NCBI GenBank assembly: GCA_009192285.1 | Contig: WBVU01000003.1 | Location: 3,069,973 to 3,133,972 of the forward strand | DNA length: 64,000 nt | Reading direction: 5' to 3' | From: Morchella semilibera | Lineage: Eukaryota; Ascomycota; Pezizomycetes; Pezizales; Morchellaceae | Part shown: positions 1,167-49,420 of the stretch, one piece after another | Numbering within the stretch: the first letter of the stretch is position 1 | Layout of the letters: the number at the start of each line of letters is the position of its first letter | Position numbers and translations under genes: made by a program | The notes under the pieces: model-generated | The model's database searches: none | What the model saw: the letters and a program-made list of their open reading frames with translations, nothing else | What the model was told of the DNA's origin: nothing

Positions 1167-3142
1167 ATGGCAAAACGCACAATTGAAGACGTTGAGACCG
1201 AGGTGCTTCCTGTTGGAACCAGTCTCATCTCCAAGAAGAAAAAGAAGGATAAGAGCGAGAAGAAATCCAAGTCTAAGAAGGACGCCATTCCCGAGACTGT
1301 CGTCGAAGATACCGCGCCAACACCCGGAGGTAAGAAGGGAGAGACTGATGCTGTGAGTACTGAGTCAGAAGAGAAGGAGAAAAAGGATAAGAAAGAAAAG
1401 AAAGAAAAGAAAGAAAAGAAAGAAAAGAGAAAGAAGGCGAAAAAGACCGAAGAGGCGGGCGAACCAACAGATGAACCGGAAGCCGATTCCCTAACTAAAG
1501 AGGTGGGGGAACCTCAAAAATTATCGAAAGAAGAGCGAAAAGCTGCAAAAAAGGCGGCAAAAGAAGCACGAAAAGCTATAGAATCAAACGGCACTTCTAA
1601 TGGCGTTGAATCCTCAAAGAAAAAGGTTACGGAAGACAAATACAACGGTTCCACTGGAGCTCCGGTCGCAACCTCTGGGTACACCCAGAGCTCTGAGTTG
1701 TCGAGTCTTCCGAAGGCTACAGTTGACGAATACCTTAACAAACATTCCATCTCAATTAATGACCCACATTCATCCAACCTTCGCCCAATAACCTCGTTCT
1801 CTTACCTCCCTTCTCACACATTCGATTTCTCAGCCTTCTCAACACCCCACTCCAATTCAGGCTGCTACATGGCCATACACGCTTTCTGGTTATGACTGTA
1901 TTGGTGTTGCTGAGACAGGCTCCGGAAAGACGCTAGCATTCTCTGTTCCGGCAATTCGTCACATCGCCTCCTTGAAAACCTCAGCTAAGGGTTCAAAGGG
2001 TGTTAAAGTTGTAGTTGTGTCACCTACCAGAGAGCTGGCAATGCAGATTTATGAGACGATGGAGAAATTCTCAAAAGCCGCAAAGCTAACTGCTGTCTGT
2101 ATTTACGGTGGTGTGCCAAAAGACGAGCAGAGGCAGAAATTAAAGCGTGCGGACATCATTGTAGCGACACCCGGGAGATTACAGGACCTCATCGATGAAG
2201 GGTGCGCAGACTTAAGCCAAGTCTCATACCTGGTCCTCGACGAGGCCGACAGGATGCTTGACAAAGGTTTTGAGGATGCAATCCGTAGAATCATCTCTGT
2301 CACACCTACCGCTTCTCGCCAAACTCTCATGTTCACAGCTACATGGCCAACATCTGTTCGTGAACTGGCAGCTACGTTCATGAAAAACCCTGTTAAGATT
2401 ACAATCGGTGATCGCGACGATCTCCGCGCGAATATCCGTATCAAACAGACCGTCGAAGTTATTGACCCACGCGCCAAAGAGCAGCGTCTCCTCGCTCTTA
2501 TCAGGCAACATCAGTCCGGTGCCATGAAAGATGACCGTATTCTTGTTTTTTGTCTATACAAGAAGGAGGCGACAAGAGTAGAAATGTTCCTTCGTAACCA
2601 GGGTGGTTTCAGAGTTGCTGGTATTCATGGCGATTTGAGTCAAGAGCAAAGAACTCGAGCACTTGGACAATTTAAAGATGGCAGTTGCCCGTTATTGATT
2701 GCGACTGATGTCGCAGCGAGAGGACTTGATATTCCAAAGGTGAAATTGGTTATCAACGTTACTTTCCCGTTGACAATCGAGGACTATGTTCATCGTATCG
2801 GACGGACTGGAAGGGCTGGAGCTGATGGGATGGCTTACACTTTCTTCACTGAGCACGATAAGGTAAATAATGGCTAACTTCAAGGATTTGCAAATTAATT
2901 TCTAACGTTTCGTCTAGGCACACTCAGGTGCTCTCGTTAATGTACTCAAGGCGGCGGGGCAGCCCGTGCCAGAGAGTTTGTTGAAGTTCGGAACTACAGT
3001 CAAGAAGAAGGAGCACTCTGCATATGGCGCCTTCTATAAAGAAACGGATGGGTAAGTAAGATTTGGTTCCATACCCAACTACCTGATTGGCTAATTAGTC
3101 TACAGTGCGAAAGCAGCGACAAAAATTAAGTTCGATGATTAA
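1167..3142 (+). CDS. DBP3: DEAD-box ATP-dependent RNA helicase Dbp3 (apparent 1-nt frame break)
   Basis: Nucleolar DEAD-box helicase; Dbp3 proteins act in 60S ribosomal subunit assembly (family knowledge). Proposed exons are 1167-2862, 2918-3051 and 3106-3142, giving about 621 aa once one base is discounted. Residues 1-190 are very Lys/Glu-rich, as in fungal Dbp3. The Q motif TPTPIQ lies near residue 227, Walker A AETGSGKT near 247, DEAD at 358-361, FTATWP (motif III) near 395, and [10 protein letters not shown] near 542. The 55- and 54-nt introns have GTAAAT and GTAAGT donors, the first with a CTAAC branch. The start is the ATG giving MAKRTIED. A frame break occurs in the CCCC run at about 1845-1848: upstream protein reads frame 3 and the helicase core reads frame 1, and three Cs would restore the conserved [13 protein letters not shown]. 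Whether the break is real or a sequence error cannot be told here. Family assignment is secure. Confidence 0.93.
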
Positions 3143-4086
3143 TCTTGTTTGATACCCACAAATTTCTTGTAAGGACTGCTGGCAATTGTATGCTTAGATA
3201 AAGAAGTTCGAGGCTGCGGATAAATTGATAGAGTAAATTTTGGAATTAAAGCCTGTTATCAGACGTGATGATCAGAGATATGTGGGATTATGTGTTGGGC
3301 TATAAGTACTTAATGGTGTGTAACATGAGGGTATACATTGCCTTACATGTGCCTATTAGAGTCTCCAATCTCAGAAACCCATACAGCTAGAGCCTTCTGT
3401 TTTGATTCTATAAACCTATGAATCTAGCCGCACATATCATAGATTTGCACTAACTCATAATTTATCACTCGCATAATAGGTTGTAAGATGTGATGTGTCA
3501 CATGTCATGTAACACCCTTAAGATATGCTAGGATACTCGTACTTGAACCAACCTCATTATCTGGGCTACCCGGTCTAAGGGGTATCCGCATACGATCGAA
3601 CTTGAGATAAATTGGGATGGGTTTGTTAGGCTCTACATCACCGAGTGATATATACCTGGTGTCGGTTTCGGGTTTCTTTCCGGGTGTTAACTGTAGGTTA
3701 GTTATGGCTCCTGCCCTGCTATAACCTAGATCAGCGGGAGGGGACTGAGACAAATCATAAATAACATAGTTAAGTCCGAACTGCTCCGGTTATTGTGATA
3801 TGTGATATCCCCCAGGCGGGCAGAAGTTCGGGCGGGCGAAAATGCTGCTCGGGAACTTTACGCCTTCGGAGATCTGGTTGATCCTCTTAAATCTTACTTT
3901 TATGGGCCCGGGGTTACACATTAAGAACCACTATTACGTGGAGTGCGTAGGTGGGTTGCTGCGGGGTGCGCAGTGGTTCGTGTGACCAGGAAACGGACCA
4001 AAGCATAAAGAGACCCAAGAAATCTTAAACACTCCGCACCGGACAGCTCCTTTGTGATCACAGAAAGACCTATCAAACCCATAGAG
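3143..4086. other. Intergenic region DBP3 to antiporter
   Basis: About 0.94 kb with no supportable gene. It should hold the DBP3 3' end and the promoter of the antiporter gene. One ATCACTCG word lies at 3464-3471 and its reverse complement CGAGTGAT at 3642-3649. Confidence 0.55.
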
Positions 4087-6112
4087 ATGCCTAGGCTAGA
4101 TATCAGTAACTTCAACAAGGCGTGCGGGCTAGGTGGTGGTTTCATCATCTCATTTGGCCTGGTTTCTTTGGTTGTTACTGAGAGTTTATATCTCTCCGAG
4201 TCATGTTAGTAATGTCAAACCCCCCCAATACTTTTGACTAAGGATTCATATTCGAGTAGTTATTGCTTTAAGTACAGGTGCCTTCTGGTCGAGATCAGTT
4301 GGTCCAGACCTGGCGGAACCCTGGATATACGTTGATAGTCCCTCTGAAAGCACCGAATCCTTTACAAGAAACCTTACTAGATTGGTATTGGGCATACAAC
4401 TGGTAATAGTGGGTGTTCAATTGCCGAGCAAATATATCGTTCACGAATGGAAATCCTTAGCTATGTTGCTAGGTAAGCCGTTGGGCCAAATTTGTGGATG
4501 CTGGCCATGGCTAGGATTTAACTAATTTGACTTGGTTTAGGCCCAGTGATGACCTTGATGTGGATCACAAGTAGTGTAATAATATGGTTATTTGTCCCAG
4601 AAATAACAATGGTATGTTACCTACCCACTTTGAACGCTTCATAAGCTTTGCTCATTAGTGTCTTTGCCAGCTCGGGGCTCTTGCCGTAGCCGCCTGTATT
4701 GCGCCTACAGACCCCGTTCTTGCAAACTCAATAGTAAGGGCTCTTTCTTTCACTTAGAGAAATGATTTATAATGTGTTGTAGGTGAAAGGGAGATTTGCG
4801 GAGGAGTTCATTGCACCGCACCTCCAAAACATCATTGTTGCCGAATCCGGAGCTAACGATGGCTTGGGATATCCATTCTTATTCTTGGCATTATATCTCA
4901 TTGAATATGGAGATAAGCCTTCAAGAGCACTGGGTCTGTGGTTTAGTGAGACCATGCTTTATGTTATTGGTCTTAGCGTCGTGTATGGCATTTTTGTCGG
5001 GTGGTTGGGCTTAAAGGTGTTGCGTTGGGCAATCAAGAAGTAAGTCATGCCTGTCAACTTGGCCAGTTGATTATATTTCAACGTTTCTAGTAAGATATTG
5101 TATATTCAGAGTGGGGTGGGGGCGCGTCTCGCGTTTTGGGGGCGTTTGGTTGTTTTAGATCTAACATCAAAGTTCAGGAAATGGGTCGGGCGAGAGTCAT
5201 TTCTCATATTTGCTATTGCGCTAGCGGTAAGTTCTTTTAAAACCCCGGGATTGATTTATAGTAGATAAACATAAAACTTATCAAGTATAAAGTGTTTCAT
5301 TGTCGGGACTTGCGGAATGGTTGGGGGTGATGATGTCCTTGCTTGTTTCGTGGCCGGGAACGTATTTACTCTTGAGTAAGTCCAGCCTGAAGAGAGACCT
5401 CCCTGTTGGCTTTAAAAGACTTTAACGAATAATTAGTGACTGGTACCGCCTCGAGACCAAAGACGATTTCCTTGTACCCACCGTGGATCTTCTTTTAAAC
5501 CTGGTTGCCTTTTTCTACTTTGGCCTCATAATTCCCTGGGGGCACCTCCTTCAAAATGCCATTTCCATGCCGTTCCCCAAACTTATTTGCATGGCTATAA
5601 CTATCCTTGCCCTGCGGCGTCTGCCAGCCGTTCTTTTAACATTCAAGCTCATCCCAGCGGTTCGGACCTGGCGACAGGCTGTTTTGGCGGGATACTTCGG
5701 GCCTATTGGAGTCAGTGCGGTCTTCTATCTTACAGTACTGACCGAATATACGCACATATTTCAGGGAGACGGTGTTTCGGAGGATTTTGCGGTAAGGTTG
5801 CGGGAGACGGCGACGTTAGTGGTGTGGTTTATGATAGTTTCAAGTGTTTTTTGTGCACGGGATTACGGTGCCGTTGATTATGGTTTGTACCCCCTTCCCT
5901 TTGGTACCTACAACTCCATTTTGACTCTAAGGCTTCCGCTTACGCTGGATAACAAACAGCTTGGACTTAACATTAGAGAAAGGCTACCGGCTTTATACAG
6001 ATATATTTCGGGCCATAGAGGGCCAGCAAGCTGTCAGGAGGATCTTCGTGAGGCTGGCCTCCTTGTGCCGAATGAATTTCCTGGATATGGATCTTTGCCT
6101 ATTGGTGATTAA
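4087..6112 (+). CDS. NHA1: Na+/H+ antiporter, fungal Nha1/Sod2 type (apparent 1-nt frame break)
   Basis: Plasma-membrane cation/proton antiporter of the CPA1 group; Nha1/Sod2 proteins export Na+ (and K+) for salt and pH balance (family knowledge). Exons: 4087-4204, 4257-4472, 4541-4611, 4671-4733, 4783-5039, 5178-5226, 5293-5375, 5437 onward. Motifs: APTDPVLANSIVKGRFAE, SGANDGLGYPFLFLA (the ND pair expected in TM5), RESFLIFA, GGDDVLACFVAGN, FFYFGLIIPW, LRRLPAV, GYFGPIGVSAVF. The 138-nt fifth intron is supported because joining 5039 to 5178 gives KKKWVGRESFL. In the T6 run at 5847-5852 the frame slips: with five Ts the family motif VHGITVPLIM appears, and an intron 5883-5959 then returns to the frame ending SLPIGD. 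Without correction the frame stays open by chance to 6112. The first TM segment looks about six residues short, so exon 1/2 joining is tentative. The long hydrophilic tail of yeast Nha1 is absent. Confidence 0.85.
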
Positions 6113-9100
6113 CCTTTAGAGTAGTTGAGAGTATAGCGAGAAGAGGACCAAAAGGGGTAGCGATTACTCCGGAAGTTTGCGTCTGTTCAACTAGCTCGTA
6201 CGATGCTCATTATGTTTCGACCCATCATAATGTTCATCGTGCTCTCAACAATGCTATTTGGAGAAAAGGGTGGAAAATGTTTCTTGTTAGGTTTGTGACC
6301 GATAGTTTTCGCTTCTTGATATATCCAGGGGCTCCATGTGGTCCTTTTGGGCTTGTGAGAGCTGTTACAATATACACTGTTATTTTGTCACATCTAAGAC
6401 CTGTCTATCCTGAGATTGCGGTGAATTAATTAGTGAATTAAACCAAGTGCGCTGTAATCACAAAATATCACTCGGCCCACCGTTACGATGCAGGGTCCAT
6501 ACTCGCCACACGGGACCCCACATTGAAAAACAAACCGCATTTTGTAAAACTGCACTTCTCCACTCGAAACTCACCGTTCAACCAAACATCCACCGACCAA
6601 AAGCCAAATATCCGAGGAGGACCCGGTGTTTTCTACACCGGTAGCGTAGATGTGCGGGGTGCCGAAGCAATTAACCATCTGTTACAGGTGGCGGCCCTCT
6701 TGCGCGGCGAGCATATTGGTGCTGGTGTTGCGGCACGATCGAATCGTATCATGATCAGGTCGGGGACTGCACGTCGAAACATTTGGGTTACCGGACATTG
6801 TCAGGCACCTAGGTTCGTGTAACGTACTTACTAAGTATGTGCTTGTAGCTTAATATTAAAGAAACCATCACTTTTAGTCAAAATTACTAGTTGTAGGGAT
6901 CTTTTTACTGGGTGGGCAAACAGCATTTCTCAAAATTGATGCTTGGCCTAAAGTCTCCAGTTCTGGTGAATGGTAGTGCATTTTTGGAACGCAGCTTGAT
7001 CATGTAGGAATCTTGCAGCGCTGCAAACCCGAAGGAAGGTGAGTATAGAGGTTAAAATAAGCTTTCAAGGCTTGTTTCATCTTTAACTACATGCATTTAT
7101 GTAAATACTTACCTCGGTTCAGAGAGATGTACTGAAGTGTATTTGACCATCGGATCCACCCAAAGATGGACATCTAGTTTTCATTCATGAGGAAGTTTAT
7201 GTTCATGTTCTCTAAGCACGTTTGGGGAATGTATATTCAGAGGCTTTGGGAGCCAGTGCGGAGGTAGGCAAACTTAGTGTGTGTCTCCATCAACAGCAGT
7301 GGACATACGGACGGTTCTTTCAATGTAATTGGGTATGTGGCAATAGAAGTTGGTTCTGCCACTGACCTCAAGTCTCTGCCCGCCGTCTAGTAGTTTGGGC
7401 GTTGAGATTCTCGCGCAGTGCCATGTCGCATAAATACTCGTTTTCGCCCGTGTCGGGGGCCCTACACTACATGATGTGTGTGTGTGTGTGTCTGAGTTCA
7501 GACTTTAGGTGTAAGTACACGAGTGTGGGCCAAGTTACACTTGGACCTGTCAGTAAGACGGGTAGTGAACTCGCTACGTATTTCGAAACCATGAATCTTT
7601 AGCCTCTCCCTTCCCTTTCCCTTCGTCCCCTCTTCTTTATTCTTTATTCTTGATACAGCAATATAACGTGCATCATCATGGTGCATGGTTCTCTTTCCCC
7701 TCTTTCTATGTCTTAGCCTCTTAGGTACTTCAGCCGCAAACAACACGGGATTGACCATGAAAGCCATTGAATTACTATGCTAACAATAACCTGAATTGAA
7801 GGTGGCTTTTTTCTCTCTTTCTTCTTTCGGGGCGGTGGCCAATGCCAATACCGACGCCGACATCGATCAAGTCAGCCTCACAAGTAATCACTCGCCGTAT
7901 CATACCGCAACATGCCAACTCTGCAGTCGGGAACACGTACATGTATGTAGGCCCTTAGTGGGATATCAGCGCGATCGAAGCAATTAATGAACAAACACGG
8001 CATGTTACTCACTACTACATAGAGGCAGCACACGATCGATGCGAACTATACACCTTAATGCTCCTCCCCCGAATACGAGTATGCATGTTAGTTACATGTA
8101 TGTCGAGTAGAGCATTCAGGAGAAAAATAAACGTCGTACACACAGGTATGCTAGTTTTTCATTAGCACGGACCCACTGTTTTATGTGTCTTCCCCATGGC
8201 TGAAGATGAGAACTGGCCGCACAGCGATCACGACATGTCTCATCAAAGTATCAAGCAATAGGCATGCTTATCTAGACATGTATTGCTATTATTACATAAC
8301 GTGTGAGTTGACCCCAAGCCAAAGGTGCTGCTAACTACAGTAGTGGCTGAAGGAATTCAGAACACATAATCTCGGGTTGAACACCCCTATTCGTGCTGTG
8401 CCGTAATACGAGGGAATGACGCTCGAAAAATCGGCTTCACCCGGTTGAAGTATTCTATCGGACGAGCCTCCGTAGGGCTAGGTAGTGAGCAAATACTCCA
8501 GTCAAGCAACTAGGGCATATGGGGCTCAGCGAGCCTCTTGAAATCAGAATGAGGCAAGTTACAAGCTTTGGGGAGAAGGTAGGGGGGGGGGTATAAATAG
8601 CCTGTACTTTGAGATACCAGGCTGGATATGCGGCGTGATAGTGGCTCAGTTTTAGCGACATGTCATATACTACCTACACGAAATGATGCCCTTCTTCGGG
8701 AATCATGGGGTACGATAAAACGTCACTGTTGCTCTTTTAAAGTTTTGCTGATCGCATTATTATAATGAGTTTCTGTGCTCAGAAAAATGTCTGCGCGTTC
8801 GCGTTTTTGGTGCTGGGGGGGGGGGGGTGGTGGGTTGAAGGTGGTTTGTGGTGTGTCTACATACATACCTCACCGGAACTGGGATCATGGGTACTATGAA
8901 ATGGATAGCATGTTGATCGCTCATTCGCATCTATTTGACTTTGACATGCCTGCGAAATAATATGTGAAGGGTTTGTAGGGCTTAAGTTCGTCTCTTCCGA
9001 AATAAATAGTGCGTCAACTAACCATTTCTAGATCATTTATTACCTCTTCAAGGCACATCTTCTCATCTTGAAGGGTCTTGGCTAAAAATAGTATCCTACC

Positions 9101-9502
9101 AATGTGGCGTATGTCTACTAAGTACTATAGAGTACCTATTAACCATGCCGCCTACGCCCCAATCATACCTCATGCTACCGGCATCCTGCAGTTGGCCCTT
9201 ATTATTTACCGGAGAGGAATAATGCTATACAATTTCTGTCCGCCCCTCACAGCACCTGCACAGGAGGAATAGATTACCGGACCGCCTCACTCGGCCTGTA
9301 AAGCATTGTCATCTGCCCTGTTAATCTCTTTGTAGACTGTCTTTCCCTTTGATCCCACGTTCCCTTTACTTATCTTCACACATTCTTGATCAACTGCATG
9401 TGAAATATATCCCTAGGTTTGGGAATCCTGAATTTTTTTTACTTTCTTTCTGCCCTTCTTCTACGAATCTTTATTTTCAAAAAGCAAAACCTTGCAACAA
9501 CC
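6113..9502. other. Long intergenic region, 3.4 kb
   Basis: No convincing gene. The stretch contains TACATGTA at 7938-7945 and 8093-8100, ATCACTCG at 6467-6474 and 7887-7894, a (GT)n run at about 7475-7490 and G runs near 8582 and 8815. The word TGAATTAAACCAA at about 6433 recurs in the small insertion at 12.85 kb. The last several hundred bases should be the promoter and leader of the glycoprotein gene at 9503. Confidence 0.5.
6523..6822 (+). other. Unassigned open frame, doubtful coding
   Basis: A 100-codon stop-free stretch 0.4 kb downstream of the antiporter. It has no ATG near its 5' end (the only Met is about 75 codons in), so it could only be an internal or terminal exon. The segment after codon 30 reads like ordinary protein (GVFYTGSVDVRGAEAIN, then HLLQVAALLRGEHIGAG) but I recognise no family. 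No donor or acceptor site clearly links it to the antiporter. It may be a chance frame. Confidence 0.15.
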
Positions 9503-19536: not shown

Positions 19537-21999
19537 ATGCGCGGAATATGGTCTCAGTCAAAGCAAGATCCACAGCAACAGGTATGCACTTGCTCCTTCT
19601 CTCGTCATGTTTGCTTTGGTGGGCAATGCAGCTACTCTCTGGAGTCTCGACTTCTACCTACTGTACCATCGTCATCTACCACTCAAGTACATGTACATGC
19701 TACAAGCGCATAAACATCCTCGCCCTCATGTTTTCCTCAATATTACTCTTCTTTGTCTATGCTTCTCGCTTACATCCAAGCGAATCCGCTAACACCCCGC
19801 CTTGCATTGAACTGCGTAGGAAATGGTACAAGTTGGCATGTAGTCCATCTCCCTCATCCGCTCACGCTCTTTCACCCAAAATATAAATATCTCGGAGCTT
19901 ACCAAAAGTTCAATATGCTAATGCAATGTCCCGTATTGTTATCCTGGGTGTAGATCGTTCAGAGTAATTCCCCCAATGATGTGCTTCTTGTTGCTGTGGC
20001 AGCACGATATTTACACCTTCCGTATGTGTTTCTAACACTACGAGTAAACTAGTTCACCCTCGCCCTTCTGGAGAGGTCGTTCGAGTAACTCAACTTCTGC
20101 CCCTCAGCGTGACAGCTCGCAGTTGGTACCCCCGTGCTCTTTTCCCAAGGGCCTCCTCCCCGCTGACATGGAAGGATGGCTGTAGGACTCGAGACCCCTC
20201 CAAAATTGTTGGGGCTGCTTATTCCCATGCAGATATGTTGAAATTTGAGTCACTGTAATGCTTTCCCTCCGTTAACCACCTTAAAAGCATCACATATCTC
20301 ACTACTATAGTAGCTCTGTGCGGCCCAAAACCCCACCACCTTCTATACCTTCTCCCCCACTTCCTACCCCAACCCATCGGCCTGGGAGAAATTTCACAGA
20401 CTTCATGTCTCAAACGGATGATGATTGGGATGCGGACGTGAAAGATGAGACCGCAGATGATTTTCTTCAACAGAAAATAAAGCCCCCGCGGTCCATCGAG
20501 CACCGACCAGCCGTCAGTTCTAAGCTCAGTGGCAATGGTAGCTCTACAGATCTTTCCCGAGCACCAACATATCCAAGTCCTAGGAGGAAAGACACTCAGG
20601 GACTGAAGCCGCAGTTCGAGGGCCTTGTTAGGGGTGAGTTCCTAATTTCTTTACGAAAAGTATGGATCCAATGCCTGGTACAATAAGCTGAAAGCCCTAT
20701 TTTTATTTGAATAAGCAAAGACCCTGGTAACTCCCTGCATATGATATACCACCCAACGTTATCTTCCGACACCCATACAGAGGCCGAGATTGAGAGACTC
20801 AACTCTCGTATCAAGCGTATAAATAAGTTCAAGCGTATACTCCAGTCCTCAACTGTCGATTTAAATGAATTGCGCGAGATATCTTGGAATGGCATTCCAG
20901 ATGAACTACGGCCCATGGCGTGGCAAATGTTGCTCGGATATCTGCCTGCAAATAGTGATAGAAGGATAAACACCCTGGAACGAAAGAGAAAGGAGTTTAT
21001 AGATGGCGTCAAGCAGGCTTTCGTGAGAGGTACTGCTGGTCTAGATCAGACTATTTGGCACCAAATATCCATTGATGTGCCCAGAACGAATCCACACATC
21101 CCACTTTATGGCTTTGAAACAACCCAGAGATCATTAGAACGCATATTATACGTTTGGGCGATACGGCATCCAGCTAGTGGTTATGTTCAAGGAATAAATG
21201 ATCTTGTGACCCCATTTTTCCAGGTCTTCCTTTCCGCTTATATTGGTACTGCCCATTTATCCGAGTATTTGGTAGCTCTGTCTCTAACATTTAGATAGAT
21301 GGAGAAGTGGAGACCTTTAATCCTAACTCCCTACCTAAAGAGGTCCTAGACGTTGTTGAGGCAGACTCTTTCTGGTGTCTGACTAAGCTCTTGGATGGAA
21401 TTCAGGATAATTATATACACACACAGCCCGGTATCCAGCGACAGGTTGCTGGTCTACGAGACTTGGTTCAGCGGATCGATAACTCGTTGACAAAGCATCT
21501 TGCTGAACAAGGCGTCGAGTTTATTCAATTCAGTTTTCGATGGATGAATTGCATGTTAATGAGAGAGCTTAGCGTGAAGAATACTATCAGAATGTGGGAT
21601 ACTTATATGGTAAACTTGCGGATGCTCCTGTGGATGTAACCCTATTAGATAGAGTATGACTAACAAACTCGCGAGAAATAGGCAGAAGGACAAGCAGGAT
21701 TTTCGGAGTTTCATCTCTATGTGTGCGCAGCGTTTTTGGTCAAATGGTCTGAACCGCTTCAGAAAATGGACTTTCAGGAAACAATGATGTTTCTACAGGC
21801 TCTCCCGACACAGAATTGGGGAGAAAAGGAGATGGAGATACTTCTAAGTGAAGCGTGAGCAGAACCCTATTGCCTTTAACCTACAAACCCGCCTAACTTT
21901 GGTCGCACCTCAGGTTTTTTATGGCAGAGTTTGTTTCGTAACTCGAGTGCTCACCTCCGGCAAGGTGGGGCAGCCCACGTCCCGACTATTAACTTATAG
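19537..21999 (+). CDS. GYP1: Gyp1-type TBC-domain Rab GTPase-activating protein (5' exons uncertain, apparent 1-nt frame break near the end)
   Basis: RabGAP of the Gyp1/TBC1D22 group, which inactivates Ypt1-type Rabs at the Golgi (family knowledge). Secure exons: from about 20312 to 20633, 20721-21245, 21299-21609, 21682-21854, 21914-21999. Landmarks: RPKTPPPSIP, DDDWDADV, SSTVDLNELREISWNGIP, WQMLLGYLP, then the arginine-finger block QTIWHQISIDVPRTNP and the glutamine-finger block GYVQGINDLVTPFFQVFL. ADSFWCLTKLLDGIQDNYI and FRWMNCMLMREL follow. The 5' end is inferred: a candidate first exon at 19537-19581 (MRGIWSQSKQDPQQQ) and a second at about 20109-20185 keep frame but need a 527-nt intron. 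In the last exon the T6 run at 21915-21920 should be T5 to give the expected FLWQSLF; uncorrected, translation stops at 21941. Confidence 0.85.
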
Positions 22000-32218: not shown

Positions 32219-35201
32219 ATGGTCGCGTCTTGTTCACCCCATCGCCAGCACGGCGATATTGCAAGTTTATTCCCGCGCGCACACTCTCAATCACCACTCA
32301 TCTCCCCCACGCCACCTGATTTGCCCGTTTTGTCAGCTTTACCCACATTCTCTGCACCTTTCACTCTCGCACTTGCAAATACTGCTGCTGCACGAACTAG
32401 GAGTGCAACTCGTCGTCAGAGCTCCACACTTGCAAATTGCCGGGGGTCTCCTTTGCTTCCGGAAAGCCCTTCAAAACTTCAGCCACTCACAACTACCACC
32501 CACAACAACATGAATTCAAGCGGAATGACATTGCGATCTAGCTCATCGAGCCCAGCTCGCTCCGCCAATCCACGTGATAAGCTTGCTGCTCAGAGACAGA
32601 ACCGCGCAGGGATTGGTGTCGAGAATAAGGAACAACTTCACAAGCCAGCTACCGGAAGTCCTCTCAAACGCAGCGATGGTGCAATGAATCTCAACGAGAT
32701 CAGTCGAGGGTCGCCCGCTGCGAAGGGGAGATCTGTGTCTGGGCCTCTCAGAATTACGAAGCCTGTCTTCGGTAACTCGTCGTTTGGCTCCACAAAGTCG
32801 CCGTCACCAAAGCGCTACGCTACCAGAAAAAGCATGGGTAGCAGTGGCTTGTTCACTGAGAAACCAAACTTTGCGAAAACGAGACCCCAGGCGAGAAACC
32901 AGGACTTTCTTCCTCCATCCGAAGCTTCGAAGCTACGTCGTACTGGTTCGGTTGAGAATTTCTCGAATGCCGCGAGAGATTCGCCGTTTGGAAACAACCC
33001 CGATCCATTGCCCAGTGCCTCCAGTCATCCCTACAATGGGAATACAGCTCAACAGTCTCATGCGCTGCCCCAACCTAGCTCCGAGGAGCCATCTGCAAAC
33101 CAGGAAAGTATGGGTCTCTGCACCCCGCAGAACTATAAGCTTGCCAAGCCATTTCTCGCTGCGTTCCATTCAACTGGTTTCGTTCCAAAACGTGGACGTC
33201 TCGACACCGTAGGGAAGGTACATGGACCTCAGCCAGATACACCGTGCAAGAAGCCGACTGCTCCTTTCTTTTCCCAGTCTACAGTCCAGTCCAAGGGAAC
33301 TACGGGTAAAGGCCGGTTGTCCATGACCATGACCGATTTTGCTTCGAGCTCTTCGACCCCCGCAGAGTATATTAAGGGAAGGAAATTAGCAAGAAAGAAT
33401 AGCACCATGAGCAACGATGACGGGGATGATCTTGGCGAATACGAACTGCCCCCAACTCCTACAAAAAAGACGCATGGCAACCTGAGCGTGTTTTTTACTG
33501 CAAATAAACGCTTACGGACTGATACTAGCTGTGAGTATAATAGCTATTCTCGTCCACAAGACGATAGTGAGCTCCCACATAAAGTCACTAATAAACCCAT
33601 CACAGCTGACGGGTTACATGGACGCTACGTAACCACTTCGTCTTCCCCGCATACGCCGAAAGATAATATAGTCCCACCCGACCCCAGTAACTTGTCGATT
33701 TCTGGGCGTGCCAACAACGCGAGTAAAACCATTTCCCCAGCTACTCCTAGTCCAATTAAAGATTTTTTTTCCAATTCTTCGCCAGGTGCTGGTTTTGGCT
33801 CCTCCCCTCTTACCCACTCAGTACAGTCCATAGATGGCAAAACTATTCAAGTGTCTGATGATTTCGTCCAGCGATTTTCCGAAGTGAAACATATCGGATC
33901 GGGAGAGTTTTCGGAGGTCTATCAAGTCGTGGAGAGAGAAGGGGACGGTCATAGAAGACATCCATTTATCGATTCGCTGGATCCACCGCTTACGCCTCAA
34001 TTGGCCACACCTAGTCGCTCTTCTGCCTTTGGGTCATCACCCCTAAGGGCTACTGGTCCTGTACCAAAAATGTATGCCGTTAAAAAATCAAAGTCAGCGG
34101 TTCTTAGCACCCAAGGAAGGGCAAGACGTATGGAGGAGGTCGAGATCCTAAGGGAACTTGGGGAGAATGATCACGTGATCAGATTTGTGGAAGCTTGGGA
34201 GGAAAACGGACACCTTTATATTCAGACTGAATACTGTGAAAATGGGGGTTTGGACAAGTTTTTGTCTCAACATGGACATAAGGGAAGGTTGGATGAATTC
34301 CGTGTCTGGAAAATACTTGTGGAACTCTGCTTGGTGAGTTTAGGTACTGACATGACCCTAAAATGCGCTTTGCTGACAAGTATGTATAATAGGGCCTCCA
34401 ACACATTCACAATTCTGGATTTATGCACTTAGATCTCAAGCCTGCCAATGTTCTGATCGCCTTCGACGGAAGCCTTAAAATCAGTGATTTTGGAATGGCC
34501 GCGAGGTACCCAGCAATTCAAGGATTGGAGCGCGAAGGAGATCGTGGTTACATCGCACCGGAGGTCATTAACTCAGCTAAATACGATAAACCTGTTGATA
34601 TCTTTGCCCTTGGCCTTACAATGATTGAGGTTGCTGGGAACGAGAATCTTCCGCCCAATGGGCCTGATTGGCGAAGGCTCAGGGAAGGAGATATCAGTGT
34701 AGCCCCAAAGCTGTCTACCAGCTCTTCCGGAGAGTTTGTGCATCGCGACGCCCGAGGAAACCCAGTATCCACCGAACTACTTGGGGTTGAAGATGACGAT
34801 AAAGTTAATGATTCTTCTTCGACCACACAGTACCTCCGCTCTAGGAAGTCATCCGGACAACAGTCTAAAGCATCCGGAAAGTCTCGCAGCAGATCTCTCC
34901 TCCACAACCCAAGGAACGGAGATCTTGTTCATCCACCCCAGTTCATGGCGGATGGCGGCCTCGAGAAGATTGTTGCCTGGATGATAAGCGCTAAGCCAAA
35001 TGATCGACCAACGGTTTCCAATCTCTTGGCAAGAAGCGAATTGCGCTGGATTATCGATAGAAAGAGAGCGGCAGCGACGATATTTGAAGGTCTGTGGGCC
35101 CGGATGATTCGTCTCTCGCTACGGAGGATGAAGATATGGGGGTTTGCAACACTGCTGAAGCTGAAAACTACCAGGAGGATTGGATGGAGGAGGTGTTATG
35201 A
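32219..35201 (+). CDS. WEE1: Wee1-family cell-cycle inhibitory kinase (apparent 1-nt frame break near the C-terminus)
   Basis: Dual-specificity kinase that phosphorylates the inhibitory Tyr of Cdk1 to delay mitosis (family knowledge). Exons 32219-34333 and 34393-35201 (59-nt intron, donor GTGAGT), about 974 aa. The first 555 residues are Ser/Pro-rich with many SP/TP sites, including SPLKR and PPTPTKK, as expected for a regulated N-terminus. The kinase domain has the glycine loop IGSGEFSEVY (~559), YAVKKSK (~619), FVEAWEENGHLYIQTEYC, the catalytic loop HLDLKPANVLI (~716), DFGMAARYP and YIAPEVI. HLDLKP is the Wee1-type variant of HRDLKP. Near 35089-35092 one base appears missing: adding one gives EGSVGPDDSS and a short acidic tail ending WMEEVL at 35201, whereas the uncorrected frame runs to 35397 through UTR-like, Phe/Arg-rich sequence. 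The start is the first in-frame ATG; 32519 is a weaker alternative. Confidence 0.92.
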
Positions 35202-38200: not shown

Positions 38201-38475
38201 TACTGCTGTTGCTTCTGCTGGGTTTGTCATGGGGGGGGGGGTTTTTTTATGTGTCTCGGAATTTTGCCCGCCGCCGACACCTTGGTGGCTAGCCGCCGCG
38301 GCAGGCTGTTTATTTGCAGCTGCTGTAGTTGGTTGAATTTACGGTACGCTAGCCCTAGCGGTTTCGCAGGGATTGCTGCATGTTGCACAGAGCCGCATGT
38401 GTCACATGAAAAAAAAAAAGTTTTTGGAACCCTACGATTACAACTTCACCGAATTCGTGATATCGAAAAAAAAAT
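35202..38475. other. Intergenic region WEE1 to MRM2
   Basis: About 3.3 kb without a supportable gene. From 35.3 to 35.9 kb it is T-rich (WEE1 3' region). Other contents are a G15 run at about 36117-36131, a CT repeat near 36225-36245, TACATGTA at 36455 and 36668, ATCACTCG words at 36405 (reverse), 37251 and 37630, a G11 run at about 37645 and a T21 run at about 38152-38172. The last 100 bp before 38476 has two A runs close to the MRM2 start. Confidence 0.5.
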
Positions 38476-39738: not shown

Positions 39739-41319
39739 TTTAATTAAATTGGACTTCTCCTCTGTACCTGGAACTGGGTTAAGGATTTTCGGAGACGTTG
39801 GTTACACTTGATTGGGCGGGCGTTGGCATTTAAGATGTGCAAAAAGCTTTGCTTGCGGGACGGTACGGGGATTTGTTTTATTTTTTAGACAGTGTGAGTG
39901 CCAGTGGTAGGTACGGGGTTGAATGTGCCGTCGTCGCCGCACACACAAGCTGCATGACATGGGAAACCCTACTACCATTACCAGGTCCAGGAGTGAGATC
40001 TGAAAATGCCACACCTGTTGCTTGATTGTGCGCGACTTTTTATCCATTCGATGTCTCTAGCGATGAAATTCCTAAACAAATTTCTTTCTTTCTTTGAATG
40101 GTCTCATGTGAGGGGTGAGAGGGGGGGGGGGGGGAATTTAACCGCGTATATTGTTTTTTTCTTCCCCCCTTCTTGCTTCCTTCTTCTTCTCGTTGACCCC
40201 CGTTATTTCGTGAGTAGAGCAAAGCAAATATGTACCTAATGAGTGAATTGAAGGGTTTACAGAGAGTCATCACTTCCTCGCGAGCGACTGCCAGCTCGGG
40301 AATTGTACATATAACTACCGCTTGAGTGCTTTGGTTGAGTGGTTGAGTTGTTGGTCTTTCTCATCTCAATCCTCTCGTAGGTCTCTGGTCTCTGAACGTG
40401 GTCCCACACCCGGCGAGTATGTACGGCGAGGATTCGGTAGAGCGTAGAAGATTTATTATTATATTATGTATGTATTATGTATATTATATATGTAATAGGG
40501 AGGAATAATAAATAAACATCCGAGGGAGGGTGGTGGAATGAGTAAGTGGAAAGGAGAATAAATACTGGAAAGAGAGAATACATTAGTAGCAGCTAAGAGC
40601 TCAGCTCTTTTTTTTTTTTTTTTCCCCTTCCCCCTTAACCGATCGTTTTTTTTTTTTTTTTAAAAACAGCTCATCGATTCGTCTGTCTGCTTTTTAGTTT
40701 TCTCTCCGGATCCCTTTTGGAATTTTTTTTTTTTTTTTTTTTTTTTTTTATATTTTTTTTTTTTTTACCTTTTCACTGTCTCCCTTCCCTCTCAATTCGG
40801 GGGGGGTTCTTATTGATACATGTACCTGTCTCGGTATACGTCTCCATATTAATATCGAACGCACGACATCGTCCATCTTCTTCGTCGCCAGTGCTCACTC
40901 ACTCGGATCTGATTCCATCATCATCATCATCGTCATCATCAATCTACTCAATCTACTCAATCTACTCAATCTACTCAATCTACTACTACTACAGTAGTAG
41001 ATATATATCACTCCATCACCTTCAATCATCAACCCAACAACTAAATAAAGAACGGAAAAGAGAAACCCCAACCCACATCCACATACAACTAACTAACCTT
41101 GACACCTCACATTTCATCTTTCCACCCCCCAGCTTTCCACCCAACGTACCACAGACGATCTTCACACAGCAGCAGCAGCAGCAGCGCACAGCTTCGAATC
41201 CCCACACCTTCCACACTCGTTTTCCCTCTTCTGCAGCAGGCAGCAAGCAGCAGCGGGCCAGACAAGCCAACAGCTCCCAAGAAAATATATAAAAAAAAAG
41301 AAAATAAAAAAATACAAAC
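39739..41319. other. Intergenic region MRM2 to LAMTOR2
   Basis: No gene supported. It holds a G13 run at about 40122, extensive T runs at about 40611, 40647 and 40721-40766, TACATGTA at 40817-40824, a 9-bp repeat at 40941-40978 and a CA/CT-rich run to the LAMTOR2 ATG. The last 500 bp has the pyrimidine- and A-rich makeup of a fungal leader. Confidence 0.5.
40941..40978 (+). repeat. 9-bp tandem repeat (AATCTACTC)n
   Basis: Four perfect copies of AATCTACTC followed by a CTA-rich partial copy, located in the leader or promoter region about 350 bp upstream of the LAMTOR2 start. Confidence 0.9.
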
Positions 41320-42038
41320 ATGCTTAAAACCAAGCCTCTCAACCAGCTCCTCTCCCAGTCAATCTCCCCAAACGTCTCCTCCGCCCTGTAAGTCAAGTCT
41401 TTCCCCTCTCCCACATATTACTCTCTCTCATCCCCAACAATTTCGCAAACTCATATACTAACCCATCTACCACTACTAAACACAGACTCTTCACACCCAC
41501 CGGCTCTCTTCTCGCAACCGGCACCTCCCCGACTGCCCCCGACGCCCGCAAATCGCGAACCTACTCCGCCCTCGCCGCAAACATCTGGAGCGCCTATGAC
41601 CGTGTCGCCGTCCAGGGCGTGATCGAGCAATCGCTCCCCGCCAGCGACGATGAAGCTCCTCCTCCTCCCACCACTACCACCCCCGCCGCAGGTTCTGCAG
41701 CGGCGCAGGGCCTGAAATCGCTGACGCTCGAGCTGTCGGACTACAATCTGCACATCCAGGTTGTGGTTCCCGGTGTGCTGCTGTGTCTGATTGGGCCCAA
41801 GCAGCCGACGAGGCACAACAGCAGCTCGTCAAGCCTGCATTCGCAGGAAGGGGAGGCTACGGGGACAGGGGCTACGGGGACAGGCAGCGTGCCGAGGAGT
41901 GGCGGCGCGGGGAGCACGAGCGTCGGGAGCAGTGTTGCTGGGAGCGGGAGTTTGGGGATATTGAAGACGCAGGCGCAGGCGTTGGTGGCGTATTTAGAGA
42001 GCGAGCTGATGGGCTTTGAGCTGCCCGAGGGGATATAG
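41320..42038 (+). CDS. LAMTOR2: Roadblock/LC7 protein, LAMTOR2 (p14) type Ragulator/EGO subunit
   Basis: Small roadblock-fold scaffold predicted to sit in the lysosomal/vacuolar Ragulator (EGO) complex that anchors Rag GTPases for TORC1 signalling. Exons 41320-41387 and 41486-42038 (98-nt intron with CTAAAC branch); 206 aa. It matches animal LAMTOR2 along its length: MLKTKPLNQLLSQS, LLFTPTGSLLATG, ANIWSAYDR, VVPGVLLCLIGPKQ and GILKTQAQALVAYLESEL. Animal p14 is about 125 aa; the extra length is two low-complexity inserts, one Pro/Thr/Ala-rich near residue 85-105 and one Ser/Gly/Thr-rich near 140-180, which fall between conserved strands. Filamentous fungi commonly annotate this gene only as a roadblock-domain protein, so the orthology call is mine from sequence. 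Confidence 0.85.
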
Positions 42039-42957
42039 CTGTCGAGCTCGTCCTCTTTTTTTTTTAATTTTAATTTTCCTTTTTTTATTTTTAGTTTTTT
42101 TTTTTTTTTTTTATGAGATGATTGCTACCTTTTTTTTATTTTTTATTTTTGAAGGGTATAGCGATGGTAGGTGCAATTGGAATGTGCGGTGTTAATGGTC
42201 GCTTTTGGCTATGGATCAGGGCTGGCTGCTTATAATACTTGCAGCCCTTTTCCTTTATACTTTTATCTACCTACTACTTTATTCAATCCTATAGAATCAT
42301 CTTGTCTTTTTTTCTTTCTTTCTCACAGTTCAATGGGTAGTCTGGGTCTTTTTTCTTTTTATCATTAACTCTTATGAGACTTGGTTTGGCTTTCTGGAAT
42401 TCCCGGCTCTGTTACTCTGTTGCTACCGTATTCTACGCCTTGCAATGACATCTCTCTTGAACTCTTGAACACCTTCCGGGCTGCCTCCGTATGTCAAGTA
42501 TGGATATAGGGAAATACATGCACCTGCCCAATTGCAATTGGACTGTGCAATGGCACCCTTCGTGGTGTTTGGTTGCTGCAGTCAATTACATCATGTTGAC
42601 CCGCAGCCAACACGCAGGTTTGGCACACCGCCGAATCATGCCCTGTGACGCTGTTTTGCACCGTGTGATTTCGCATGACGGCGGTTGTGGATTAACGTAG
42701 TTTTTATCGCCGTTCCGGTTCTGTTTGGGGGGAGGTGAAGTTGTGATGTCTCTGCGGCGGGGGAGGGGTCGATTCGATTCGACTCGATGCAATGCAGAAT
42801 GTCGATATCTCACAATTAGAAACAACACTCACAGAGCAGAACAGAGCAGAACAGAACAGAGTCTACAAACTACAAACTACAAACTACATACATACAAACT
42901 ACATAAAAACCCATCTACAGACCCCCCACCCCGATACCGATATCGGGGACCCAAGAA
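42039..42957. other. Intergenic region LAMTOR2 to CIA84-like gene
   Basis: No gene is supported. T runs just after 42038 suggest the LAMTOR2 3' UTR. The last 150 bp before 42958 is rich in ACAAACTAC and CAGAACAGAG short repeats, with the CIA84-like promoter presumably between 42.4 and 42.9 kb. Confidence 0.5.
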
Positions 42958-45388
42958 ATGCGCCCCACCCTCCTCCACCACCTCCTCCGGCAGCGCCGAC
43001 CGCCACCGCTCCCCCGCCGTCTCCTCCCCCACTTCCTCCCACCGCAGCAGCAGCAGCAAAGAACCCTCCTAGGCCTCAGCCGCCGCGCGCCCCCGGCAGC
43101 GGCGGCACCAGGGCCAGGGATCAACACGATCGAGAAGCTAGTGGGCACGCTGAGCACGCACGAGGGGCGGCCGCCGGCGGCAGAGACGCTGGTGTGTGCG
43201 TTCCGCGACGTGGTGCACGGCCCGGGCGCAATCACGGACGAGCACGCGCACGGGCTGGCGCGCACGTACCAGCACCTCAAGGGCGGGATACCGGCCGAGG
43301 ATGTGCGGGCTGCGCTGCGGGCGCTGCGCCGTCGGGGAGGAGGGGGGAGCCTGCATGTGGCGGGGTTGGCGAGGTTGCTGTTTTCGGGGCTGGAGGAGCT
43401 GGCGGCGGGGGATGTGGAGGTGTTTGTGGGTGTTCTTGCGGGGTGCGCGGGGGGGGCGTGGGAGGCGGCGGAGGTGGTGAGGAGGTTTTCGGGGGAGGGG
43501 GCGGTGTTGAGGGGGGAGGAGGGGGAGGGGGCGGTGCAGAGGTGCTGGGAGATGGTGATGAGGGGGTTGGAGGGGGAGGGGGAGGGCGGCGGCGGGGGGA
43601 CGGAGAGGGAGGTGCTCGAGATGTGGGAGGATGTCAGGGAGAGTGTGGCCGTGGTCACCGCCGGGATGATGGGCCCCGTCGTCAGGTTCTATTGCAGGCG
43701 CGGGGAGGTGGAGAAGGCGCGGCAATGGTATGGGAAGCTGGTGGACGAGGAGGGACTGACGCCGGAGCTCGAGACATATGTCGAGATACTGCGACTGTGT
43801 GCGGAGAAGGGCGAGAACGTATGGGCCCAAGAGATCATCAACTCGATCCTCAACGGCGGCGACGACAGAGGAATAGTCTCCAGAGAGGCCTGGGACATCG
43901 TTCTCCAATGGGCGGACGTCATTACAAAAGACAGTAATGAAATCTCCCGGCTCCTCACAATCATGGTGAGGAGGGCAGCCACGACAAACATCTACCCAAC
44001 AATCGAGACCTTCAACGAGCTGATCCGCTTCGCAATCTCCAGAGCCGACTACAGGGCCGCCCGGAAGCACCACAAGCTCGCCATCCACCGAAAGTTCGCG
44101 CCGAACCGCAGAACCCTCGAGCTCCAGATCGAGTACCTGGTCCTCTCGGGCAAGATCAAGATCGCGCAGGACGTCTACGACCAGCTGCGCGCCGAAGAGC
44201 TGCCCCCCTCGTACCCAGCGCACTCCGTCCAGCTCCTGCTGCAGGCCCTGTGCAGAGACCCAACCCCCGACAAGGAGCTGATAAACCGCATCCACGTGGA
44301 CCTCGGCGAGTGGAACAGCCCGCTGGAGATTGGGACCACCACCGCGCTCCTCACCCGCTTCCTGACCGACTGCGACTTCAGCGCCGTCATCGCGCTGCTC
44401 AGCGGCGCCTCGTGCGCAGCATACCCGGCGGGCGACCGCCGCAAGATCATCCACGAGATGGGCGAGCACATTGGGCGCAGCACAACCCCGATCGAGGCGG
44501 CCTGGGACACGTACCAGATCCTGTACCAGGTGTTCCCGGAGCTGTCCGTGCGGCAGCGCACCGACATCATGCGCCTCTTCTTCGCGCAGGACCGCAGCGA
44601 CATGGGCACCATGGTGTTCAAGCACATGCGCGGCACGCCCGGGCGGCGTCCGGGCCGGCAGGGCTACATCGCGGCGCTCAACGGCGTGGCCTACGCCCGC
44701 GACATCGACGCGCTCAAGGTCGTGCACAACGCGCTCAAGCTGGACCAGGGCCTCGACCTGGACACGGCGCTCACAAACGCCCTCATGAACGCGTACAACC
44801 GGTGCGGCGTGCCGTCGCGCGTGCTGCGCTTCTGGGAGGACGTCAAGCGCAGCGCAGAGGGCCCAAACTACCAGAGCATCAGCGTGGTGTTTGAGGCGTG
44901 CGGGAACCTGTGGGACGGCACGCCCCGCGCAAAGATACTGTGGGGGCAGCTGAGGTCCATGGGCGTCAAGCCCACGGTGGAGAACTACAGGGCCTACATC
45001 GAGGCCCTGGGGAAGGGCGAGCACTTTGAGGAGGCCTTCAGGCTGGCCAGGGACATGGAGCTGAGTGATGGGGTGAAGCCCGATGTGAAACTGTGAGTTT
45101 CTGCCCCCCCCCCTTACTCATTATCACAAACTAGCAGAATGTTAAAAAGGGAAAAAAAAACCTCCCCTTTATTACAGGCTTGGAACGGTATATGCAACCT
45201 CACCCCACGACATGAGGGAAAAGGTCGCCGAGTGGGCCAACGACGCATATCCCGCCGAGTGGAGCGAGGTCGAGGCGCGCATAGCGCAGCTGCCCAGGGA
45301 AATACTCCAGCCGGACGCCCTGGAGGAGCTCGGGGGCAGCCAGCTGCGGAATCTGCTGCAGGGTGAGCCGTCGGTGTTGGGCGATTGA
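42958..45388 (+). CDS. cia84: Mitochondrial PPR protein, CIA84-like (complex I assembly)
   Basis: Predicted mitochondrial pentatricopeptide-repeat-type helical protein. CIA84 in Neurospora associates with a complex I assembly intermediate (established). Exons 42958-45092 and 45178-45388 (85-nt intron); 781 aa. The N-terminus is Arg/Leu/Pro-rich and lacks acidic residues for over 60 positions, a good presequence. Helical PPR-like pairs recur from residue 240 on: VVRFYCRRGEVEKARQWYG, TFNELIRFAISRADYRAAR, LQIEYLVLSGKIKIAQDVYD, ALMNAYNRCGVPSRVLRFW. The last exon, GTVYATSPHDMREKVAEWA, resembles what I recall of CIA84 C-termini, which is the main basis for the symbol. The gene is much more GC-rich than the left third of the window, and residues 120-220 are encoded by G-runs. 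A 628-codon antisense open frame is a by-product of this composition. Confidence 0.72.
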
Positions 45389-47177
45389 GGAGGGTGAGGC
45401 CTCAGCTCTTGACTAGGGGCTGTTGAAAATATATATATTATATATAAATAAAATAAATAGCAAAAAAAAAGGATAGTACAGTATATTAGTGTAAATAATA
45501 TAGGGGGTGATAAATACCCCGAACATGGGCGCTGCGAGTGATAGATAATGACCCAGCACCACCACGCCACCCACAGCTCCTCTCCAGCTCACAGAAGCTA
45601 TCAAGGCCCCAGCAGTCATCATTACTATGGCCTGTGTGCCAGAAGTCATAACACAGACTAAACTATTGCGTCGTGGGAGAAGACGGATCACCAGAAATCA
45701 CTCGGTTGTCAATTCCGTCATGTGACCGAGCTGCCACCGACCCGGTGCCGCCCTGCCACCCTCTGCACATAGGGGAGGGTGGGCGGGAGCTACGCACAAA
45801 TCTCACCTCCACTCCCGCTCCCCGAAAGTAAAGTAGGACGGGCGATCCATCTGTAGCAGCTGAGGGAGAAAAACAAAACGTCCCGGTGCATGTGCCTGCT
45901 CCCCCAAACATCCCTTCTTCTTACATGTATAGTTATGTAGTTATGTAAGCCGCAGTGCTATAGAGAGCCGAGCATCCGTTTTACACCTCGCCGCATCCCG
46001 CCCCGCGGGGCGTGTTGAGTGTGCGGGCTGGCTGACCTATCCGTAACCGACATCTCACCTCTTCAAAAAGAGGTGAGGTAACCCCCCGCCAATCTAGGGG
46101 GGTATGGCTGCCGGTGGTGCGGTTGTGGCTGTAGAGTGCATACATACATACTAGGGGTTACCACCTCGCGACTGCGGGTTGTGTAAGTTTTGATCCTCTA
46201 GCTCTCTCTATGGTAGGTACATACATGTATACATGTACTCTAGTGCCAGTTCGATATTCCACATGGCGGCCTTCGGCCTCCCCCACAATCCCCATTCAGT
46301 TGATGCATTGCCAAGGAAAGGATCTTTCCACCCCACCCATAAGCCACAACGGCACAAACAAGAGCATCGTGGCGTGGCCTAGTGGTAATACACTGGGCTT
46401 CGTCATATGACCACGACAGGTTCAAACCCTGGTGGGAGCAGTGATGAGAATGCCCAATATGGTAGCGACGCTCTTGAGGGATGAGTACTCACTCACGTAA
46501 GTCTTTTATTGCCGGCTTTTTTTTATTTTTATTTTTAGCTTTGGGTGTACGTGCTCTGTATTGTATGGCTTCGGTGGATGATGTGCCAGAGACTCTTTGA
46601 AGTATGGATATCAAGTTCTCCTGGGCTTCTAGTGCAGCTGTTATTGGGTGCTTAGTTAGATACCTTAGTCGTGCTTGATTAATCATATTACAGAAACTTT
46701 CAAAACGGATGTAATCCAGTACATAATAGATACATGTAGACATGTAGTACTACCCCGTCCCGCAAAGCAGAGAGAAAGAGATACGACAGAGAAGGTGCAC
46801 GCCAGAGGTGGTGCAATGCAATATTTTCTATCCGCCCGCGATGGCCATGGACTGTCGTAGTATATCAATACATATTGAAATCAATGACTTGACTGCTTAG
46901 GGCGGATCGAGTGACATCCCATGACCGCAAACCACATGCTGCAAACCACATCACATACTGCTATTGATTCACTATGTACCTACACGAGTAAATAGAACAC
47001 CAAAACCAAATCGCTTGTCCACCGACAGCCTTTACAATCTCTACTCTGTAGCATCATCATCACCAAATTCATACAAAAACTAATTATCATAGGCCCCCAA
47101 ACTACAAAGAACCACCCACCTAGCTACAAAAACAAATAGACAAAAGAAAAACCTATACACCTACAAAACTCCCACCG
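45389..47177. other. Intergenic region between convergent CIA84-like and coiled-coil genes
   Basis: No protein gene is supported. It holds a possible short inverted-repeat pair (CGAGTGAT at 45535, ATCACTCG at 45697), TACATGTA at 45922, 46222, 46230 and 46731, and a Pol III-type unit at about 46365-46525. The final 250 bp is A/C-rich (3' region of the minus-strand gene). Confidence 0.5.
46365..46525 (+). ncRNA. tRNA-derived Pol III unit (SINE-like)
   Basis: TGGCCTAGTGG at 46375-46385 matches the Pol III A box and GGTTCAAACCC at 46419-46429 matches the B box, 33 nt apart as in tRNA genes. The first T run after them is TTTT at about 46504, with a longer one from 46517, so a transcript of about 140-160 nt is plausible. 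It is not a functional tRNA: the expected 7-bp acceptor stem and a regular anticodon arm do not pair. A tRNA head plus an unrelated 75-nt body before a T tract is the layout of a tRNA-derived SINE. I see no second copy in the window and no clear target-site duplication, so mobility is inferred. Confidence 0.5.
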
Positions 47178-49420
47178 CTACTTCTTCTTCCCCGCAAATA
47201 GCTTCTTCAGCGCATCAGGCCGCTTCTTCGCCGGACTGATGTCGCGATTAAACGCGCTGACCACCGGTACCAGCATCAACCCCGAATCCCCACCCACCGC
47301 AGGCATCACCTTCTTGCTCGCACCGCCGCCGCCGCCAGCCGCCGCCGCCGGACCTCCCAGGGGGGGCTGGTCCTGCGTGCCAAAGTTCATGACGAGGCGT
47401 CCTGTGCCGTCGTCCTCGTCAAAGACGGTGGGCATGATCCCCTTGCCCTTGCCCTTGCCCTTGCCGGGTTTCTGTCCTCTGCTGCTGCTTTCTTTTCTGT
47501 GGCAGCGGGGGCCTTTTCTGGTGCTTTTTCCTTCTCTGGCGCCTTCTCCTTTTCCGATACTTTCTCCTTCTTCTCAGCAGCAGTCTTTTTCGGCTTCGCG
47601 GCAGCAACAGGCTTAGCCGGCACCGGGATCGAACTCGGCGAATCAAAGATGCCCAACTCCTTCTCCACCACCTTCTCCACCACCTTCCCGGCCGCCTTCT
47701 TCCCCTTTGCCTTCGGCCTCACCCTCACCAGCTCCGGCTCGGGGCTCTGCGCCTCTTCCTCTTCCTCCTCCACCGCCGGCTCAGCAGCAATCCTCCTCTT
47801 CCTCGCTGCGCCGGCCAGTAGCAGCCTCGTCGGCTCCTTACTCTCCACCACAGCGGGCAAGAGCACGCTCTGTTCAGTCGCGTCCATCTCCGCGATCGTG
47901 TCTGCGCCCGCCATGGTCGGCGTCGCCGGATCTTCACTCCCGCTCGCCGCAGCGCCAACGACAGGCACGGTCTTGCGCAGGAACGGCGTGATGCTAAAGT
48001 CGCTGACCTTGGGGCCCTCCTTGCGGACGCGCTTCGTCGACTGCTCAAGGTCCTCCATAGTGAAGCCAGGGCGCTTCTTGTTGTCTGTTTCCGGCAGCGT
48101 TACCTTCTTCGTCTTTGTGGCTGCGAGTTTTGCACGTGTGGACTCTAGCAGTGAGGTTGCTGATGTTAGTTTAGCCGTGAGGGCCGTGTATTGCCCCGAG
48201 AGCTCCGCGAGCTCTGACTCTGCTTTTTCGCGCAGCTTTGTTTCACGCTTAAGGGCGGCTACGGTGTCTTTATCTTTAGCTGCTGGTGGTGGTGGGGCCT
48301 TGCGAGCGGCGTCAAGGTCGGTACGGAGGGAGGCGAGCTGCTTTTCGAGGGAGGCAATCTCCTTCTTTGCGGCACGGGTGGCATCGTCGACGGCCTTTTG
48401 GATGGTAGATTGGGCATCGTCTAGCTCGAGGCGGAGGGTTGCGAGCTCGGACTCGAGGGCGGCCTTTGTGGCGGCCTTGGAGGTGAGGGATTTGGCGAGG
48501 CGGTCGACATGGTCTTGAAGTTTTACTTTGAGGGTTTGGAGCTCGTCTTTGAGGGTTTCAATGGTCGCGCGGGCTTCTATGAGTTCCTCGGGGGAGGCGG
48601 CAGCCTTGAGGGTGGCGGCGTGGGTGCTCTTGAGTTTTTTGATGGCTTGCTCGTGCTCGGTGGTGAGCGCCCCGATGGTGTCCTTGTTGGTCTCATTCTC
48701 CTGGTTCAGGGAGTCCACGGCGGCGGTCTGGGTCTTGAGCTCACGCTCCACATCCTTCACGGAGGCCCGTAGCTTCTTGTGCTCGTCCTTGAGCTTCTTA
48801 TAATCCTCTACGACCTCCACCGCCTTCTCCGCCTTCTTTAGCGCGGCCTCCCTGAGCTCTGCATTCTCCTTATCCAGCTCCGCACACTTCCCCTTCAGCT
48901 CCTCGACCTCAGCCGCTAGCGCGCCCTGCGCCGTCCCCTCCTCCAGCAGACGCCCCTTCAGCCGCTCCTCCAATTCCTTGCTGCGCTCCAGCACACCATT
49001 ATGCATATCCTCCAGCGCCTTGTTGCGGGCAGACGACTCCCGCAGCTTCTCCTCAAGTCTGGTGACGCGCGCGGTCCCGCGGGCGGCGGCAGACTCGTAC
49101 CAGGTCATGCGTTTCGTGGTGGCCGCGAGGGCATCCTCGAGCTCTGTGGTGTAGGTGAGGTGGCTGTTGTAGTCGGCGAGGAGGAGCTTGTACTCGGGTT
49201 CTAGGTGGAGGAGGCGCACGCGGAGTTGTCGCTGCTCCTCGGCGCCTTCAAGGCGCGTACTTGTGTGGTTGGTTTTCTCGTATGAGAGGAGGGACTGGGC
49301 CGTTGCGAGTTGACGCCGGAGCTGGAGGGGGGGGGGGGTCAGCTAGGGGTTTTTGTGAGGGGAGGAAGATGGGGGAAGTACGTCGGCGAGCTCGAAGGCA
49401 GTGTCGCGGTCGATTGCCAT
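47178..49420 (-). CDS. Long coiled-coil protein with basic nuclear-type tail (apparent 1-nt frame break)
   Basis: Function not recognised with confidence. Exons 49420-49382 and 49321-47178 (60-nt intron) encode about 727 aa if one base is restored. Residues about 14-400 form an almost unbroken heptad coiled coil (repeated EELK, LEKQL, KAEKAVEVVEDYKKLKDE). Then come a conserved-looking block DFSITPFLRKT, a basic KRRI stretch, Lys/Pro/Ala/Glu repeats, FDEDDGTG and a basic end KKLFAGKKK. Fungal nuclear or chromosome proteins with a TPFL block and a C-terminal FDEDD element exist, but I cannot name the family safely. The frame break is at the T3 run 47469-47471 (A3 in the transcript): four As would join the Lys/Glu-rich part to KPGKGKGKGKGIMPTVFDE, while the uncorrected frame ends in Arg-Ala repeats at 47387. 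The antisense open frame at 47499-48518 is a composition shadow. Confidence 0.75.

Follow-up and report, generated by a model that had tools for sequence, protein, structure and literature searches.

The window analysed here, a stretch of 64,000 nucleotides from Morchella semilibera, corresponds to C19:3069973-3133972 of an intron-bearing genome of 56.8 Mb assembled in 23 contigs. About 15-18 candidate genes were counted in it by eye, with introns and with domains known from fungi. Searches of the window with Rfam (gathering threshold) and ARAGORN gave no matches. G+C content is 55-57% at positions 44001-52000 and 43-52% in the remaining window. At 62691-63768, DUF7928 is matched by two open reading frames in neighbouring exons, which an ordinary intron appears to link.

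As seen in Table 1, five genes are each interrupted by a change of reading frame: the putative DBP3, NHA1 and WEE1 (names taken over from the first reading), GYP1, and a coiled-coil gene at 47 kb. Each site was translated in three frames, and long reading frames flank every break on both sides. The earlier note had described five frame-broken genes. For DBP3, NHA1 and GYP1 this holds in or beside a conserved stretch, and for WEE1 and the coiled-coil gene it is codon statistics that indicate the break. The further statement that all breaks lie at mononucleotide runs is only loosely true, since at the WEE1 site there is just one T, and since break positions derived from codon statistics are precise to only about 15 bases.

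Table 1. Positions of the five frame changes in the window
Feature	Position	Strand	Basis and precision
C-run at DBP3 frame change	1845..1848	+	Three-frame reading, DEAD-box match, codon gain
T-run at NHA1 frame change	5843..5853	+	End of PF00999 match and continuation in other frame; place approximate to a few bases
T-run directly after 3' splice site, GYP1 frame change	21914..21921	+	Sequence and yeast Gyp1 alignment on both sides; place approximate
WEE1 frame change, C-terminal tail	35085..35095	+	Codon model only; single T, no run; place approximate
Frame change in basic tail of coiled-coil gene	47460..47475	-	Codon model only, both frames read; place approximate

The codon model was our own Viterbi script with a break penalty of 9 nats, and raw gains are quoted before this penalty. 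It called 9 frame breaks across the window as a whole, 5 on the forward and 4 on the reverse strand. Three of these fall in accepted genes, namely DBP3, WEE1 and the coiled-coil gene; the other six lie antisense to the coiled-coil and PPR genes and were dropped as shadows of them. No gene was placed by the model on NHA1 or GYP1, and it is therefore silent on both.

The N-terminal frame of DBP3 is open from 1167 up to the C-run, and the DEAD-box match starts just 3' of this run in another frame, with a raw codon gain of 17.9 nats for the break. The helicase part is followed by an ordinary intron, past which the protein continues. The stretch before the break gave no meaningful match in the PDB. 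In WEE1 the break near 35090 brings a raw gain of 19.3 nats. The Pfam kinase match extends only to residue 213 of the reading frame at 34393 (about 35031), upstream of this point, and therefore even a real break would spare the kinase domain. The break of the coiled-coil gene, near 47463, has a raw gain of 21.7 nats, and the family matches of this gene are coiled-coil-like only.

In NHA1, Na+/H+ antiporter matches were found on two pieces. On the second, the reading frame 5426-6112, the PF00999 exchanger match reaches only to the T-run, its last residue being 141 (about 5848); 3' of the run a conserved-looking segment, VHGITVPL, follows in another frame. The first frame stays open beyond the run to 6112, so that the break is shown by loss of homology and not by a stop, and gene finders may therefore miss it. 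This open frame also crosses an apparent intron, as judged by eye. A piece 3' of the break (5960-6109) had no match in Pfam, and NHA1 had no meaningful one in the PDB. GYP1 pieces span much of the TBC domain. The segment ending in EILLSEA aligns to yeast Gyp1 (1FKM, 2G77) without gaps, and the yeast protein continues directly with FIWQSL. The corresponding FLWQSL sits 3' of an intron, and splicing from the better-looking donor would not bring it into frame; when GYP1 is read on past the T-run, LLSEAFLWQSL is obtained, again gap-free against yeast Gyp1. The 28-residue tail of GYP1 alone had no meaningful match in the PDB.

Some of these breaks could be misread introns, in which case unusual splice sites would restore the frame and no break would exist. 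A break-free model does find introns in three genes, at 1722-1833 in DBP3, at 35090-35133 (44 nt) in WEE1 and at 47540-47485 in the coiled-coil gene, and a weaker donor in GYP1 would likewise restore the frame. However, these three introns are 17.9, 19.3 and 21.7 nats worse, respectively, than the break before the 9-nat penalty is applied, and the weaker GYP1 donor loses two residues that are kept by yeast Gyp1. For NHA1, a frame-restoring intron was looked for by eye and none was found. This explanation is thus considered improbable.

The remaining genes of the window had been described as clean, and six of them were tested with the codon model. Five of these six are free of breaks (PPR, 9.5 kb, 16 kb, OST3/6 and GH16). 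In the sixth, Vac7, the only break placed is negligible (net 0.4 nats) and lies before the gene start; otherwise the model reads this gene through a 65-nt intron. Of the two window flanks, one (L027) shows a single weak break of net 0.9 nats and the other (L028) shows none. The five breaks of the window, set against 19,165 nt of counted exon from which some NHA1 and GYP1 exons are omitted, amount to about 0.26 per kb.

The breaks go both ways, as had been noted earlier: DBP3, NHA1 and GYP1 need a shift in one direction, and WEE1 and the coiled-coil gene need the opposite shift. This bears on the idea that the proteins are restored at the runs, either by programmed ribosomal frameshifting or by editing of transcripts. 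The first three genes would suit it, since their shifts share a direction and occur on C- or T-runs, and programmed frameshifting in fungi resembles the present case in that the frame changes within coding sequence. To our knowledge, however, the known fungal sites have a fixed short signal and a single direction, unlike the five window sites, which shift both ways while like runs nearby remain unshifted. In the same counted exon, 65 C-runs of at least four, 5 T-runs of at least six and 184 runs of three A are read without any shift. The mixed directions and the many clean runs of like kind therefore argue against recoding, which is regarded as extremely improbable. Scarcely any credence is given to the related view that the run lengths are correct and that the fungus rescues several ordinary genes by slippage of transcription or translation at short runs in both directions. 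The frameshifting, editing or relict nucleus that had been raised for the case of genuine breaks thus gains no support.

An internal control for the accuracy of the assembly is available elsewhere in the genome. Kinase matches occur at nearly equal coordinates on C9 and C10, C12 and C13, and C21 and C22, and these are pairs of near-duplicate contigs (loci L002-L025), which may represent either haplotypes that were partly resolved or copies produced by the assembly. Among twelve 10-kb pairs compared, 8 are identical and 4 differ, figures that give no rate because two pairs (L022/L023 and L024/L025) were picked beside a differing pair. The identical pairs probably represent one assembled path repeated, and would hence be uninformative on accuracy. 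In the three differing C9/C10 pairs, 67 indels stand against 5 substitutions; 4 of the latter are adjacent to one another and probably reflect the alignment. One-base events make up 63 of the 67; 59 of these 63 lie in runs of at least two and 36 in runs of at least three. The 67 indels, shared between the two copies, fall in about 14 kb of differing spans (on C9 at about 1604600-1610800 and 1621550-1629450) and are denser than the window breaks. The differing C21/C22 pair is mixed, with 35 indels, of which 28 are one-base changes, all in runs of at least two, and with 40 substitutions, many of which fall in a repeat that aligns badly. At about 3600-4530 of this pair (L020/L021) lies an array that is ankyrin-like by translation, with units of about 204 bases that are composed differently on the two contigs, in contrast to the simple one-base changes seen elsewhere.

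The four differing pairs together have 91 one-base indels, and 87 of them fall in runs of at least two, compared with about 46% of bases (P ~1e-24 under a rough null). The density of one-base indels is about equal within predicted coding regions (8 in 2,588 bases) and outside them (83 in 20,021), unlike tolerated variation; coding sequence is probably under-called in bad patches. The clearest case is an exon of F-actin capping protein alpha. On C9 (L024) it is a single frame covering profile positions 101-262. On C10 (L025), direct translation, and not the codon model, reveals three breaks and four frame pieces, of which three were scanned and two matched the family. Over about 900 bases of this region the two copies differ by six one-base indels, three of them within the exon, and by no substitution. 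With the codon model each copy received one weak break, that of C9 lying at the edge of the exon (net 1.3 nats, against 0.5 for C10). In a gene with a P21-Rho-binding domain, the codon model reads the C9 copy unbroken and places a break of net 6.1 nats in the C10 copy; this case is weaker, as a shorter start also leaves the C10 frame open. Codon-model breaks in L006, L012, L018 and L022 were discounted, since intron alternatives were nearly equal (net 1.1-4.0 nats).

Because C9 and C10 differ by indels and the capping exon is broken on C10 only, it can be seen that one-base indel errors remain uncorrected in patches of the assembly. The homopolymer-length error that had been suggested as the cause is thus observed directly between C9 and C10, and is extended to the window by inference. 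Other parts of the assembly are cleaner. Reading of 30 chaperonin and 20 HSP70 rows, not every one of which was checked, revealed no breaks. Profile positions 146-265 are absent from one chaperonin gene on C19, and stops in some HSP70 rows were taken for introns. A suspected chaperonin break on C23 proved to be a 47-nt intron. The clean chaperonin and HSP70 rows therefore suggest that the error is patchy and that the window is worse than average.

The breaks could also be real, the genes being recent pseudogenes in this strain. A second copy of DBP3, WEE1 and the coiled-coil gene was searched for in the assembly and none was found, so that the broken frames stand in genes without a known duplicate. 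This favours real loss and counts, together with the cleaner chaperonin and HSP70 genes and the mixed C21/C22 pair, against assembly error. However, the coding signal is otherwise kept in each broken gene, it is unlikely that about 15 ordinary genes in one neighbourhood would have suffered five separate losses, and identical-looking damage elsewhere in the assembly, in the capping exon, is artefact. Recent pseudogenization is accordingly held to be very improbable.

The breaks of the window are therefore very probably errors of a long-read assembly, one-base indels left uncorrected in working genes. The observation, which is real in the sequence, most likely does not hold for the organism. The sequencing would have been of the long-read type, the window would lie within an indel-error patch, and all five genes would be intact in the organism. 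Long-read-only bacterial assemblies usually retain homopolymer-length errors, as stated in PMC8812927, and long-read errors can introduce frameshifts that pseudogenize genes, as stated in PMC12007338. Such residual errors, by which genes are fragmented, resemble those seen here in that runs change by one base in both directions and conserved genes are frame-broken, a pattern observed here between C9 and C10; they differ in that the reports concern bacterial or small genomes and not an intron-bearing genome of 56.8 Mb.

These findings imply a warning to users of the assembly: where a patch is rich in errors, its gene calls will be split or shortened, and gene loss or recoding could then be claimed falsely. 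Near-duplicate contigs within one assembly provide a cheap error meter where reads are lacking.
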